Assembly (NCBI RefSeq): GCF_000737065.1
Contig: NZ_AQRC01000002.1
Coordinates: forward strand, 124,001-188,000
Source of the DNA: Thioclava atlantica
GTDB lineage: Bacteria > Pseudomonadota > Alphaproteobacteria > Rhodobacterales > Rhodobacteraceae
Direction of reading: 5' to 3'
Length of the DNA stretch: 64,000 bases
Made by a program: the position numbers and the translations under genes. The notes beneath the pieces were generated by a model. That model ran no database searches, was not told the origin of the DNA, and saw only the letters and a list, made by a program, of their open reading frames with translations. The first letter of the stretch is position 1. The number at the start of each line of letters is the position of its first letter. Positions 44,280 to 51,566 of this stretch are shown here, piece by piece.

Positions 44280-45671
44280 ATGGCCGATCTCTCCCGCAAT
44301 CCCTTTCTCTGCGCGCCCCTTGCGGGGCTCTATGCGCGCACCGCCCTGCCGATCATCTTCGTGATGGGGATGAGCGGCCTTCTCACCGTCGTCGATGCAC
44401 TCTTCCTTGGGCATTATGTCGGCGCGCGGGCGCTCTCCGCCGTCACGATGACCTTCCCGCTCTACATGCTGCTCGTCGCCATCGCGACGCTCGTGGGCAG
44501 CGGCATGTCGAGCCTTCTCGCCCGTCACCTGGGCGCAGGACGGCTCGACGCCGCCCGCCAGGTCTATGCGAGTGCGCACGGCCTCGCGCTGGCCGCAGGG
44601 GCTTGCCTGATCGCGCTCTTCGCGCTCTGGGGCGGCGACGTCACCGGGCTCGCGGCGCAGGGCGATGCAGGCCTTGCGGAGATGGCGCTCACCTATCTGC
44701 GCATTCTCGTGCTGAGCGCGCCGGTCCTCTTCATCCTTTCGGTCAATTCGGATGCGCTGCGCAATGAAGGCCATGTCGGGACGATGGCGGCGATGAGCCT
44801 TCTGGTCTCGCTCGGCAATATCCTCTTCGATTACCTGCTGATCGCGGTGATCCCGCTCGGCGTGGCGGGCTCGGCCCTCGGCACGGTTCTGGCGCAGGCG
44901 CTCGCCCTGGCGATCATCCTCGCCTATCGCGGCGCGGGCCGCACGCTGCTGCATCCGCGCGACGTGCTGCGCCACGCCACGACCCGCGACTGGGGCGCGA
45001 TCCTCGCGCTTGGCGCGCCGCAGAGCCTGAGCTTCATCGGCGTCGCGCTGGCCTCCACGGCGATCCTCACCGCGCTGCAGATGATCGGCAGCCCCGATTA
45101 CGCCGTCACCGTCTCGGCCTACGGGATCGCCACCCGCGTCATGACCTTCGCCATCCTGCCGATCCTCGGCCTGTCGCAGGCGATGCAGACGATCACCGGG
45201 ACCAATCACGGCGCGGGGCTCTGGTCCCGGCGGGACCGGAGTTTCCGGGTCGCGGCGGGGGCGGCCTTTCTCTATTGCCTCGCCGTCGAAGCGGGTCTGA
45301 ACGGCTTTTCGGGCAGCCTCGGGCGCGCCTTCGTCTCCGATCCGCAGGTGGTGGCAAAGCTGGCCGGGATCCTGCCGGTGATGGTGGCGCTCTTCGTGGT
45401 CACGGGGCCGCTGATGATGGTCTCCGCACATTTCCAGGCGATCGGCGATGCGCCGCGCGCGGCCTTGCTGGGGCTCGCGAAGCCCTATCTCTTCGTGCTG
45501 CCGCTGACCTTCGCCCTGCCTCTGACCTTCGGCGAGGCGGCGATCTGGTGGGCGAGCCCCGGCGCGGAGGCGCTCTTGCTGGGGCTGACCGGGCTCGTGC
45601 TGTGGCGCGGGGCACGGCGAGGATCGCTTCGCTGGGGGCTCTTCTCGCGCCAGGCGGAGGGACGGACATGA
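44280..45671 (+). CDS. MATE-family efflux transporter
   Basis: This 463-residue protein has 12 predicted helices in two six-helix halves (N-terminal block PIIFVMGMSGLLTVVDALFLG, second half from about residue 235). It should export cationic compounds in exchange for Na+ or H+. The ATG follows GAGGAACGAG. Its stop overlaps the start of the next gene in an ATGA junction, so the two are coupled. Confidence 0.92.
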   Translation: MADLSRNPFLCAPLAGLYARTALPIIFVMGMSGLLTVVDALFLGHYVGARALSAVTMTFPLYMLLVAIATLVGSGMSSLLARHLGAGRLDAARQVYASAHGLALAAGACLIALFALWGGDVTGLAAQGDAGLAEMALTYLRILVLSAPVLFILSVNSDALRNEGHVGTMAAMSLLVSLGNILFDYLLIAVIPLGVAGSALGTVLAQALALAIILAYRGAGRTLLHPRDVLRHATTRDWGAILALGAPQSLSFIGVALASTAILTALQMIGSPDYAVTVSAYGIATRVMTFAILPILGLSQAMQTITGTNHGAGLWSRRDRSFRVAAGAAFLYCLAVEAGLNGFSGSLGRAFVSDPQVVAKLAGILPVMVALFVVTGPLMMVSAHFQAIGDAPRAALLGLAKPYLFVLPLTFALPLTFGEAAIWWASPGAEALLLGLTGLVLWRGARRGSLRWGLFSRQAEGRT

Positions 45672-47511: not shown

Positions 47512-47550
47512 GCGCCGCCCTACCGGCGATCCGCGCGATTATGCAACAGA

Positions 47551-47584
47551 AACCAGCGCTTGAAGCCCCAAGCGCTGGTTTTTT
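47551..47584 (+). terminator. Rho-independent terminator of sqr
   Basis: A perfect 12-bp stem (AACCAGCGCTTG/CAAGCGCTGGTT) with a 6-nt loop is followed by TTTT in a canonical arrangement, 40 bp after the sqr stop. Confidence 0.92.
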
Positions 47585-47660: not shown

Positions 47661-49091
47661 GTGCCCGACACATCTCGTGAAATTCTCATCGTCGACCTCG
47701 ACGGTACCCTTTTGCGCAGCAACATGCTGTTCGAGAGCTTCTGGTCGGCCTTCGGCCGGGACTGGCGCACCCCATTCTTCTCGGCGGCCGCGCTTCTGGG
47801 CGGGCGCGCGGCGCTCAAGCGCCACCTCGCCACGGCGGCCGAGGTCGATGCGACCACCCTGCCCTATGATCAATCCGTCGTCGCCTTCATCGAGGAGTGG
47901 CGCCAGGCGGGCGGGCGCGCGGCGCTCGTCACGGCCAGCGATCAGGGATTCGCGGAGGCGATCGCCGCCCATCTCGGGATCTTCGACGAGGTGCATGGCT
48001 CGGACGGCAAGCTCAACCTGAAAGGCGAGAACAAGGGACGCTTTCTTGAGGAACGCTTTGGCACGAAGGGCTTCGCCTATATGGGCGATGCGCCCGCGGA
48101 TCTCCCGGTCTGGAAACGCGCCGCGAGAGCGGTGACGGTGAACGCGAACGGCGGGCTGCGGCGCGGCGCGGAAGGCGTGTGCGACGAAGTCGAACATCTC
48201 ACGACCGGCAAGCGCGCGATCCGACCCTATCTCAAGGCGCTGCGGCCGCATCAATGGCTCAAGAACACGCTCGTCTTCCTGCCGATGCTGGCGGGCCATC
48301 AATTCGACGCCGCGACGGTCCTCGCCTCCGTGCTGGCCTTCATCTGCTTCAGCCTCGTAGCCTCGAGCGTCTACGTGCTCAACGACCTGCTCGATCTGGG
48401 CGCCGACCGCGCCCATCCGCGCAAGCGCAGACGCCCCTTCGCCTCGGGCGACATTCCGCTCGGATACGGGACGTGGCTGGCGGGCACGCTGATCCTGCTG
48501 GGCGTGCTCACGGCGGCGATGATCGGCCGGGAATTCCTGTTCGTGATGGCGGGTTATTACCTGCTTACCACGGCCTATTCGCTCCATCTCAAGCGGCGGA
48601 TCGTGCTCGATATCTGCGTCCTTGCGGGGCTCTACACGATCCGGATCATCGCGGGCGGTGTCGCGACGGGGATCCCGCTCTCGGTCTGGCTGCTCGCCTT
48701 CTCGGTCTTCTTCTTCCTGTCGCTCGCCGCGGTGAAACGTCAGGCCGAGCTGATCGACAGCGCCGAGCGCGGCAAGCTGCAGGCGAGCGGGCGCGGCTAT
48801 CATGTGGACGACCTGCCGATCATCTCGATGATCGCGATCGGGGCGGGTTATGTCTCGGTTCTGGTGATGGCGATGTATGTCAACGCGCCCTCCACGATCG
48901 AGCTCTACGCGCGCCCGGAGGCGCTCTGGGGCGTGTGCATCGTGCTGCTCTACTGGATCTCGCGCACGGTGATGGTCGCCCATCGCGGCCAGATGCATGA
49001 CGACCCGGTCGTCTTCGCGGCCAAGGACCGGACCAGCCAGATCTGCCTGCTGATCATCATCGCCTTCATCGTGGGAGGGGCGCAGGCATGA
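47661..49091 (+). CDS. HAD phosphatase-UbiA prenyltransferase fusion (DPPR synthase-like)
   Basis: This 476-residue fusion has an N-terminal HAD phosphatase domain (DLDGTLL at residues 12-18, GDAPADLPVW near 133) and a C-terminal UbiA prenyltransferase with eight or nine helices (from about 185; NDLLDLGADRAHPRKRRRPFASG holds the NDxxDxxxD motif). UbiA proteins with this partner set transfer 5-phosphoribose to a polyprenyl phosphate, and the HAD part would remove the phosphate. I use GTG at 47661; the ribosome site is distant. It overlaps gtrA by four bases. Confidence 0.85.
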   Translation: MPDTSREILIVDLDGTLLRSNMLFESFWSAFGRDWRTPFFSAAALLGGRAALKRHLATAAEVDATTLPYDQSVVAFIEEWRQAGGRAALVTASDQGFAEAIAAHLGIFDEVHGSDGKLNLKGENKGRFLEERFGTKGFAYMGDAPADLPVWKRAARAVTVNANGGLRRGAEGVCDEVEHLTTGKRAIRPYLKALRPHQWLKNTLVFLPMLAGHQFDAATVLASVLAFICFSLVASSVYVLNDLLDLGADRAHPRKRRRPFASGDIPLGYGTWLAGTLILLGVLTAAMIGREFLFVMAGYYLLTTAYSLHLKRRIVLDICVLAGLYTIRIIAGGVATGIPLSVWLLAFSVFFFLSLAAVKRQAELIDSAERGKLQASGRGYHVDDLPIISMIAIGAGYVSVLVMAMYVNAPSTIELYARPEALWGVCIVLLYWISRTVMVAHRGQMHDDPVVFAAKDRTSQICLLIIIAFIVGGAQA

Positions 49092-49510
49092 CCTTGCACG
49101 GCCTCATCCTGCGCTATGGCGCCTTCGCGGCGATCGCGACGGCGGTCAACCTCGCGATCCAGCGGGCGGTGCTTCAGTTCGGCGAGGAAGGCCTGGTCTT
49201 CGCCGCCGCGATGGGTGCGGGAACCATTGCGGGGCTCGTGGTGAAATACCTGCTCGACAAGCGCTGGATCTTCTACGACCTGTCGGCAGGCGTGAAGGAT
49301 CACGGCCGGAAATTCACGCTCTACACCGCGATGGGAATCGTCACGACCGCGATCTTCTGGGGCAGCGAAACCGCGTTCTGGCTGATCTGGCGGAGCGATC
49401 TCATGCGCGAGCTCGGCGCGGTGATCGGTCTCGCGATCGGCTATGTGGTGAAATACAATCTCGACCGGACCTTCGTTTTCACCGACAGCCGCCTGAGGGC
49501 CGCGGGATGA
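49088..49510 (+). CDS. GtrA-family membrane protein
   Basis: This 140-residue protein has four helices (LILRYGAFAAIATAVNLAIQ, then three more) and the GtrA-family tail FVVKYNLDRTFVF-like pattern (GYVVKYNLDRTFVF). GtrA proteins are thought to flip polyprenyl-linked sugars or to anchor glycosyltransferases. In this operon it would handle the polyprenyl-phosphoryl pentose. It overlaps its neighbours at both ends by four bases. Confidence 0.9.
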   Translation: MTLHGLILRYGAFAAIATAVNLAIQRAVLQFGEEGLVFAAAMGAGTIAGLVVKYLLDKRWIFYDLSAGVKDHGRKFTLYTAMGIVTTAIFWGSETAFWLIWRSDLMRELGAVIGLAIGYVVKYNLDRTFVFTDSRLRAAG

Positions 49511-50832
49511 AGCTCTCGGGCTGGGGACGCTACCCGGTTCTCGAGGCCAGGGTCCACGCGCCGCGCAGCGTCGAAGCGCTGCAGGCACTCGTGCGCAGCG
49601 AACCCAGCGTGATCGCGCGCGGCAATGGCCGGGCCTATGGCGACAGCGCGATCAATCCCGCCGCGACGCTCGACATGCGTCATCTCGACCGGATGATCGC
49701 CTTCGATGCGGGCACGGGGCAGGTCGTGGCCGAAGCCGGGGTCCTGCTGGGCGATGTCATCGCCTCCTTCCTGCCGCGCGGCTGGTTCCCGATGGTCACG
49801 CCGGGAACCAAATTCGTCACCCTCGGGGGCGCGATTGCGGCCGACGTGCACGGCAAGAACCACCACAGGGATGGCAGCTTCCGCGAATGCGTCGACTGGA
49901 TCGACCTGATCGGCGCGGAGGGCGAGATCCGGCGCTGCTCGCGCGAGCAGAACCGCGCCCTGTTCGAACACACGATCGGCGGGATGGGCCTGACCGGGAT
50001 CATCGCGCGTGCGGCGATCCGGCTGCGCCCGGTCGAAAGCGGCTGGATCCGGCAGACCACGATCCCCGCCCCCAACCTGCGCGCGGCGATCGCCACTTTC
50101 GAGGAGTCCCAGGACGCGACCTATTCGGTGGCCTGGATCGACTGCCTGGGGCGCGGCGAGACGCTGGGGCGCTCGCTCGTGATGCTGGGCGAACATGCCA
50201 CACGCGCCGATCTGTCCCCCGTCCAGGCGCGCCGCCCCTTCGAGACCGGCGCCAAGCGCAAGCGCAGCGTCCCCTTCGACTTCCCTTCCTTCACCCTCAA
50301 CCGCCTGAGCGTGACGGCGTTCAACAAGCTCTATTACTGGCAGGGCGCGCGCAAGGCGGGCGTCGAGATCGTCGACTGGGACAGCTATTTCTACCCGCTC
50401 GACGCGATCCTCGGCTGGAACCGGATCTACGGGCGCAAGGGCTTCGCGCAGTTCCAATGCGTCCTTCCCCTCGCGGAAGCGGAACGCGGTCTGTCGGCCC
50501 TTCTCGAAGAGATCGCCGAGACAGGCGCGGGCTCGTTCCTCGCGGTGCTCAAGCGCTTCGGCGCGCAGGAAAGCCCGTTCTCCTTCCCGATGGAAGGCTA
50601 CACGCTCGCCCTCGATTTCCCGATCACGCGCAAGACCCTCGCCCTGATGGAGCGCCTCGACCAGATCACCATCGATTTCGGCGGCCGGTTCTATCTGGCC
50701 AAGGACAGCCGGATGACGGCCGCGACCTTCCGCGCCTCCGAACCGCGCCTCCGCGATTTCCGCACCCAACTCGACGCGCAAGGGGCGGCGCGCCACTTCC
50801 GTTCGGCCCAGTCAGAAAGGCTCGAGATATGA
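49507..50832 (+). CDS. dprE1: DprE1-like FAD-dependent decaprenylphosphoryl-ribose 2'-oxidase
   Basis: This 441-residue flavoprotein of the VAO family matches mycobacterial DprE1. GNGRAYGDSAINPAATLDM (near residue 41) and PGTKFVTLGGAIAADVHGKNHHRDGSF (near 99) bind FAD, and FGGRFYLAKDSRMTAATF (near 395) is the C-terminal block. It would oxidise C2' of a polyprenylphosphoryl ribose. In Mtb DprE1, Cys387 lies in a CVDFP segment; here the same block reads ALDFP, so the cysteine is absent. It overlaps gtrA and the SDR gene by four bases. Confidence 0.88.
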   Translation: MKLSGWGRYPVLEARVHAPRSVEALQALVRSEPSVIARGNGRAYGDSAINPAATLDMRHLDRMIAFDAGTGQVVAEAGVLLGDVIASFLPRGWFPMVTPGTKFVTLGGAIAADVHGKNHHRDGSFRECVDWIDLIGAEGEIRRCSREQNRALFEHTIGGMGLTGIIARAAIRLRPVESGWIRQTTIPAPNLRAAIATFEESQDATYSVAWIDCLGRGETLGRSLVMLGEHATRADLSPVQARRPFETGAKRKRSVPFDFPSFTLNRLSVTAFNKLYYWQGARKAGVEIVDWDSYFYPLDAILGWNRIYGRKGFAQFQCVLPLAEAERGLSALLEEIAETGAGSFLAVLKRFGAQESPFSFPMEGYTLALDFPITRKTLALMERLDQITIDFGGRFYLAKDSRMTAATFRASEPRLRDFRTQLDAQGAARHFRSAQSERLEI

Positions 50833-51566
50833 CACAGCCCCCGGTTCTCATCCTCGGCGCGCGCTCGGACATCGCGAAGGCCACCGCCCGCGCCTTCGCC
50901 GCGCAGGGACATCCGATCCAGCTCGCCGCCCGCAATGCCGAGACCCTCGCCGCCGAGAAGACCGATCTCGAGACGCGCTACGGTGTCGCGGTCACCCTGC
51001 ACGAGTTCGACGCGCTCGAGACCACGCGCCACGAGGCCTTCCTCTCCGCGCTCCCCGAGCTGCCCCGGATCGCCATCTGCGCGGTGGGCCATATGGGCGA
51101 GCAGGAGGAAAACGAGCGCGACACCGCCGCCGCGATCCGCGTGATGCGCTCCAATTACGAGGGCCCCGCGAGCATCCTCGCCCTGCTCGCGAACCGCTTC
51201 GACGAACGCGGCTCGGGGACCCTTGTCGGGATCAGTTCGGTCGCGGGCGAGCGCGGACGCGCGACGAATTACGTCTACGGCTCGGCGAAAGCCGGATTCA
51301 CCGCTTTCCTGTCGGGCCTGCGCAACCGGCTCGCCAAGCGCGGCGTCCATGTCGTGACCGTCCTGCCGGGCTTCGTCGCCACCCAGATGACCGAGGGAAT
51401 GGATTTGCCCGAGAAACTGACCGCGCACCCCTCCGAAGTCGCCGACGCGATCGTGAAAGCGGTCGCGCGCCGCCGCGACGTCATCTATGTCCGCCCGATC
51501 TGGCGCCTGATCATGACCATCATCCGCGCCATTCCCGAGCGGATCTTCAAGGGGATGCGGATTTGA
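50829..51566 (+). CDS. dprE2: DprE2-like short-chain reductase
   Basis: This 245-residue SDR has the glycine-rich loop LGARSDIAKATARAFA (near residue 9), the catalytic Ser in GISSVAGERG and the YGSAK pair (near 151). The C-terminal tail is hydrophobic and basic (VRPIWRLIMTIIRAIPERIFKGMRI), as in DprE2, and probably contacts the membrane. With DprE1 it would complete ribose-to-arabinose epimerisation on the lipid carrier. It overlaps dprE1 in an ATGA junction and ends the operon. Confidence 0.88.
   Translation: MTQPPVLILGARSDIAKATARAFAAQGHPIQLAARNAETLAAEKTDLETRYGVAVTLHEFDALETTRHEAFLSALPELPRIAICAVGHMGEQEENERDTAAAIRVMRSNYEGPASILALLANRFDERGSGTLVGISSVAGERGRATNYVYGSAKAGFTAFLSGLRNRLAKRGVHVVTVLPGFVATQMTEGMDLPEKLTAHPSEVADAIVKAVARRRDVIYVRPIWRLIMTIIRAIPERIFKGMRI

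Follow-up and report, generated by a model that had tools for sequence, protein, structure and literature searches.

What would the genes of a lipid-linked arabinose pathway do in a bacterium of a group in which, to our knowledge, a mycolic wall is not expected? The question is raised by four genes of Thioclava atlantica (Rhodobacteraceae), which lie on a stretch of 64,000 nucleotides (assembly GCF_000737065.1, contig NZ_AQRC01000002.1, positions 124,001 to 188,000), here called the window. An earlier note, made from the sequence alone, had read these genes as an operon resembling the mycobacterial decaprenylphosphoryl-arabinose (DPA) pathway; its gene observation is confirmed here, and its interpretation as a whole is partly supported. 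The best explanation, with a probability of roughly 0.65, is that the cassette would make polyprenyl-phosphate-D-arabinofuranose and that a glycosyltransferase of the C type (GT-C) would move the D-arabinofuranose (Araf) onto a surface acceptor. The candidate for this second step is an orphan GT87 encoded beside carB.

The probable donor cassette and its known relatives

On the plus strand, from 47661 to 51566, genes for a HAD-UbiA fusion, a GtrA protein, a DprE1-like flavoprotein and a DprE2-like short-chain dehydrogenase/reductase (SDR) follow one another with three ATGA overlaps of 4 bases each, exactly as first described. The features of the locus are as follows.

47661..49091, + strand: HAD-UbiA fusion (GTG start, AGGAACGAGG upstream)
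49088..49510, + strand: GtrA-family small membrane protein (NF037976, PF04138)
49507..50832, + strand: DprE1-like FAD oxidase (PDB match to DprE1; NF053785 below cut-off)
50829..51566, + strand: DprE2-like short-chain reductase (PDB match to DprE2, 21gq_C; NF053786 below cut-off)
47548..47583, + strand: hairpin with a T run 3' of the preceding gene (RNA fold −23.9 kcal/mol, z −6.4)

The first protein combines, in Pfam, a HAD domain (PF12710, 2e-11, 45.1 bits against a cut-off of 27, residues 10-150) with a UbiA domain (PF01040, 1.3e-19), and its top NCBIfam equivalog is NF006088 (642.7 bits, cut-off 351). The best PDB match of the UbiA half is the DPPR synthase 8j8j (1.5e-35), the Asp-rich NDxxDxxxDRxHPxKRxRP being aligned in both; the protein scores under the cut-offs of three NCBI DPPR synthase equivalogs (184.2 against 207, 146 against 234 and 143.2 against 474 bits). 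The HAD motifs DLDGT, TAS and GDxxxD, whose roles we presume, are also found. The sequence thereby supports the proposal that the HAD domain supplies the phosphatase step, and the fusion is predicted to act as a polyprenyl-phosphate phosphoribosyltransferase carrying its own 5-phosphatase.

For the DprE1-like protein the best match in the PDB is DprE1 (2.6e-77, residues 2-425 of 441), in a nearly full-length alignment in which the blocks GRxYGD, HGKNHH and AKDSR are common to both; the residue roles in these blocks are presumed. The closest solved relative of the DprE2-like protein is DprE2 (21gq_C, 1.1e-29), with the next SDR 14 orders of magnitude behind (1.5e-15). It carries the SDR motif YxxxK as YGSAK and passes the SDR model NF005489 (357.8 bits, cut-off 267). 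The comparison with profile models and solved structures that the earlier note had called for thus led the UbiA half to a DPPR synthase, the flavoprotein to DprE1 and the SDR to DprE2, and the Pfam, NCBIfam and PDB matches, much stronger than chance would give, support its gene assignments and their DPA-like logic. An alanine of the DprE1-like protein (GYTLALDFPI, 50596-50625) aligns with the cysteine of WNVCVDFPI in mycobacterial DprE1, which we take to be the target of benzothiazinones; since alanine replaces it, these compounds should not react with the DprE1-like protein in the same way.

The GtrA protein (NF037976, 169.6 bits against a cut-off of 50; PF04138, 42.3 against 26.1) is the only GtrA match in the genome at an E-value of 0.01 and is presumed to be the flippase of the lipid-linked sugar. 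A MATE gene at 44286-45668, 2 kb from the cassette, was considered for this role by analogy with Citrobacter and rejected, as no match to it (1e-15) lies beside any other cassette compared; the linkage of MATE gene and synthase in the system of Kelly et al. is not seen here, GtrA being the one in the operon. The strong hairpin behind the preceding gene suggests that the cassette is probably a separate transcription unit. None of 200 shuffles folded equally well, and a consensus scan listed neither this hairpin nor any promoter ahead of the cassette.

Judged by these homologies, the cassette very probably makes a polyprenyl-phosphate-D-arabinofuranose donor. The earlier note had found such a pathway surprising outside mycolate-walled bacteria, a view that the literature does not bear out (PMC11127046, PMC12369383, PMC2443382, PMC5080398; here and below, papers are cited for selected passages). 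Kelly et al. (2024) describe polyprenyl-phosphoribose synthases that bear a HAD phosphatase domain, and they report homologues of DprE1/E2 from systems that are candidates for making Araf-containing glycans (PMC11127046). The pilin glycans of Pseudomonas paraeruginosa contain D-Araf (PMC12369383, PMC11841053), and noeCHOP adds arabinose to Nod factors, as the earlier note had said of Azorhizobium (PMC2443382, PMC5080398). From these reports the pathway is of a known kind, its examples being the D-Araf on P. paraeruginosa pili, the Nod factors and the HAD-UbiA systems of O-antigens.

The cassette shares its activities, by homology, with the mycobacterial DPA pathway (Rv3806c, Rv3807c, DprE1, DprE2, Rv3789), whose solved structures its UbiA, DprE1-like and DprE2-like proteins match, but it has a fused HAD phosphatase, a GtrA gene in the operon and no Emb/Aft-type enzyme in the window. 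The three-component pentofuranose system of Citrobacter youngae likewise fuses a HAD phosphatase to the UbiA synthase and leads one to expect a GT-C acceptor step; it employs a MATE flippase and GT136 for ribofuranose and xylofuranose (Ribf, Xylf), whereas the cassette has GtrA and DprE1/E2 and an unlinked candidate transferase (PMC11127046). In the type IVa pilin arabinosylation of P. paraeruginosa (PSPA7_6245-6251 and TfpW) the D-Araf donor genes are likewise separate from the gene for the GT-C enzyme that consumes it; there the acceptor is the type IV pilus, of type IVa and not Tad, and TfpW is called a novel GT-C (PMC12369383). Azorhizobium noeCHOP and Rhizobium noeCNHOP, both alphaproteobacterial, resemble the cassette in their UbiA and DprE1/E2-type genes and the proposed phosphatase noeN, but unlike it they hold the transferase NoeP inside the operon and have the Nod factor as acceptor (PMC2443382, PMC5080398).

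The candidate acceptor transferase

That no acceptor transferase is encoded nearby holds for the window, where a Pfam scan of the 15 open reading frames (ORFs) with at least five crude membrane spans gave no glycosyltransferase, no GT136 model being part of the search. The genome-wide search for GT-C enzymes suggested by the earlier note did return hits, namely one GT87 beside carB and three PMT_2 genes, and yielded a user of the donor as a candidate only.

This GT87 gene, the only one detected in the genome, adjoins carB outside the window. The protein matches PF09594 (45.5 bits, cut-off 25) and, as a profile, the GT-C structure 9dm5 of PimE (3.9e-13); a single-sequence PDB search returned four unrelated chains. 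Among 120 genomes of 120 genera, HAD-UbiA was found in 47, DprE1 in 38 and GT87 in 19. All 19 GT87 genomes carry HAD-UbiA and 17 of them DprE1, a co-occurrence uncorrected for phylogeny. The chances that the GT87 is the user of the Araf donor appear evenly balanced. Profile comparison is the only link between the carB-side GT87 group and a cassette-side group, whose own profile finds no relevant PDB chain by sequence, only by fold.

As an operon the cassette belongs to a widespread class and has nothing unusual about it. What would be of importance is this partner, as a named candidate for the enzyme that transfers lipid-linked arabinose in a large family of bacteria. In three genomes, that of the window, G011 and G127, GT87 accompanies a window-type cassette with no match to the second cassette type described below. 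The simplest account of these three is that the donor module may have given way to an acquired one, the transferase remaining in place. On this reading, modules of two origins would be exchanged as donors and the transferase retained.

Several observations weigh against the explanation of an Araf donor used by GT87. The co-occurrence was set against a single control, itself mildly associated with HAD-UbiA, besides lacking the phylogenetic correction. At 1e-10, GT87 is absent from 6 of the 8 genomes with window-type DprE1 and from 15 of the 30 with the second type; it is missing in two of the six cassette carriers of the genus, and two of the 19 GT87 genomes are without DprE1. Since so many cassette carriers lack it, GT87 is not the sole user. 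Members of GT87 may be mannosyltransferases like PimE, and a BLAST comparison of the carB-side GT87 with cassette-side ORFs gave no match at 1e-3. On the donor side, the DprE1-like protein reaches 408.5 bits where the equivalog NF053785 demands 500, and the DprE2-like protein 201.4 where NF053786 demands 250, hence the names used here.

The likeliest of the alternatives, though a tentative one, accepts the donor and takes GT87 to be unrelated: the two would merely persist together in lineages, and the acceptor transferase would be either a PMT_2 protein, of which the genome has three, or a GT-C that escaped detection. The absence of GT87 from most window-type carriers agrees with this, as does the fact that one PMT_2 gene, on contig C13, has no visible sugar-lipid synthase beside it; in relatives, 16 of the 20 multi-span cassette neighbours scanned have no Pfam match. 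The two other PMT_2 genes, on the other hand, sit with a GT2 of their own, and the orphan PMT_2 tracks the cassette far less.

Some cassette loci of relatives hold large membrane proteins of their own. In L010 (8446-9999) a 518-residue multi-span protein without Pfam match, with a relative in L063, lies between GtrA and DprE1 and may be an acceptor transferase of a new kind. A PDB search with its profile gave no match, and its structural model, with a predicted local distance difference test score of 37.8, was too poor for use. Large multi-span ORFs without Pfam match, chosen by length, at or near the cassettes of L005, L008, L009, L012, L024 and L038 possibly represent unrecognised GT-C families. 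Elsewhere, at L135 (8510-11809), a GT2 and a PMT_2 (Pfam) stand in a row with lipid-A N-terminal-type and PAP2-like genes behind rpoB and rpoC, these last four named by eye; this is a separate lipid-linked sugar transfer unit.

A second cassette type beside Tad genes

A quick DprE1 tree of 107 rows, in which 35 of 103 inner branches are open, contains two clades (Shimodaira-Hasegawa-like approximate likelihood ratio test, 100), the second of which was sampled from this bacterium's family alone. This second type accounts for 30 of the 38 DprE1 genomes in the set of 120. Here a PF03706 membrane protein stands ahead of DprE1 and DprE2, and HAD-UbiA runs toward these genes. Stretches were typed by the better-scoring DprE1 query, the rows including short stretches and overlapping ones of one genome, and three more fitting neither type. 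GtrA occurs in 58 of 90 rows of the first type and in none of the 22 of the second, PF03706 in 1 of 90 and 18 of 22 respectively. As it replaces GtrA, the PF03706 protein may be an alternative flippase.

Flp-type pilin genes follow the second-type cassette in all 14 loci outside the genus (L174-L187), with CpaB in 13, the 14th stretch ending early. Within the genus a pilin is seen at two of four such loci; at the remaining two the stretch runs to the end of its contig. At one second-type locus Pfam identified RcpC/CpaB, a secretin, OmpA, an AAA_31 ATPase (from its position, of the CpaE type) and the beginning of a T2SSE ATPase. No Pfam model matched the small pilin above its cut-off, and the name Flp was given from size, sequence and place. 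The Tad genes of these loci occur in none of the 90 first-type rows. In L174-L187 the PF03706-DprE1-DprE2 genes face HAD-UbiA and, in 13 of 14, a lytic transglycosylase.

Adjacency to Tad genes was rejected as proof of a pilus function, since the opposite flank, with two genes identified by eye as scoA and scoB, is kept at every one of these 14 loci and the link between cassette and pili may be inherited order only. Tad/Flp pili are a rather unlikely acceptor. PMC8383342, on the Tad genes of Rhodobacterales, contains none of the glycosylation or prenyltransferase terms looked for, and literature listings gave nothing on Araf donors in the bacterium's family, which is not to claim absence from print. 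One may speculate, at long odds, on a split system in this family, in which Tad/Flp pili would be arabinosylated by two separate parts, a donor cassette of ancestral origin next to the Tad operon and a rapidly evolving GT87 beside carB, the GtrA-type cassette of the window being a horizontally acquired replacement feeding the same GT87. Were the Tad pilus the acceptor, this would add another example of arabinosylated pili and would make such modification common far outside mycobacteria. In P. paraeruginosa pilus arabinosylation is said to give resistance to pilus-specific phages (PMC12369383).

Spread and mobility of the cassette

A scan of genome contigs, of which the best 80 of at least 588 matching stretches were kept, some cut by contig ends, found the order HAD-UbiA, GtrA, DprE1, DprE2 in 44 loci. 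The HAD-UbiA fusion is present in 52 of the 80, a UbiA match that is incomplete or lacks the HAD part in 17 and none in 11, and the full order is found in 34 of the 36 nearest loci (L005-L040). In the DprE1 tree the window has its nearest rows in Lutimaribacter (Roseobacteraceae) and Ancylobacter (Xanthobacteraceae); the mixing of families in this clade points to a mobile cassette. The flanks of the window cassette have no match in the other cassette loci compared. At least one genome assigned to the bacterium's own family in the set has a cassette identical to that of a Lutimaribacter record.

Of the 16 genomes compared within the genus, six have a DprE1-type gene (at least 290 bits, the remaining matches being generic flavoproteins below 34 bits), with HAD-UbiA in the same six, and the cassette is accessory there. 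It is of the window type in two carriers (the window's genome and G011) and of the second type in four (G001, G002, G004, G015). An M50 gene, the marker for an empty site, is present in 10 of the 16, the window's genome included; as the window's other flank genes were absent from nine stretches beside M50 in relatives (mostly the upstream side, one only 3.5 kb), no clean empty site emerged.

It is improbable that the lipid-linked sugar is another pentose, or that the ribose form is used. Both epimerase genes fall short of their equivalog models, 11 of the 47 HAD-UbiA genomes are without DprE1 at the threshold used, and Citrobacter makes Ribf and Xylf from the same lipid, but for Xylf there a single SDR epimerase, ORF13, is named (PMC11127046), and the closest solved relatives of the two proteins here are DprE1 and DprE2 by a wide margin. 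Least probable by far is that the cassette was acquired and now decays or lies silent, no acceptor system functioning here. Such a history would fit the patchy presence in the genus, the unshared flanks and an operon without transferase gene, but hardly four intact, tightly overlapping frames with conserved blocks aligned, a hairpin that separates them from the preceding gene and a GT87 retained in the genome.

Two minor observations concern individual loci. In G011 (L129, L165) HAD-UbiA, GtrA and a DprE2-like gene lie on one contig and DprE1 and DprE2 on another, so that this genome has two DprE2-like genes, one behind GtrA without a DprE1. The DprE1 genes of L012, L021 and L025, named as Nocardioides, an actinobacterium and Thermosynechococcus, fall amid alphaproteobacteria in the tree and reflect either misassigned contigs or transfer.
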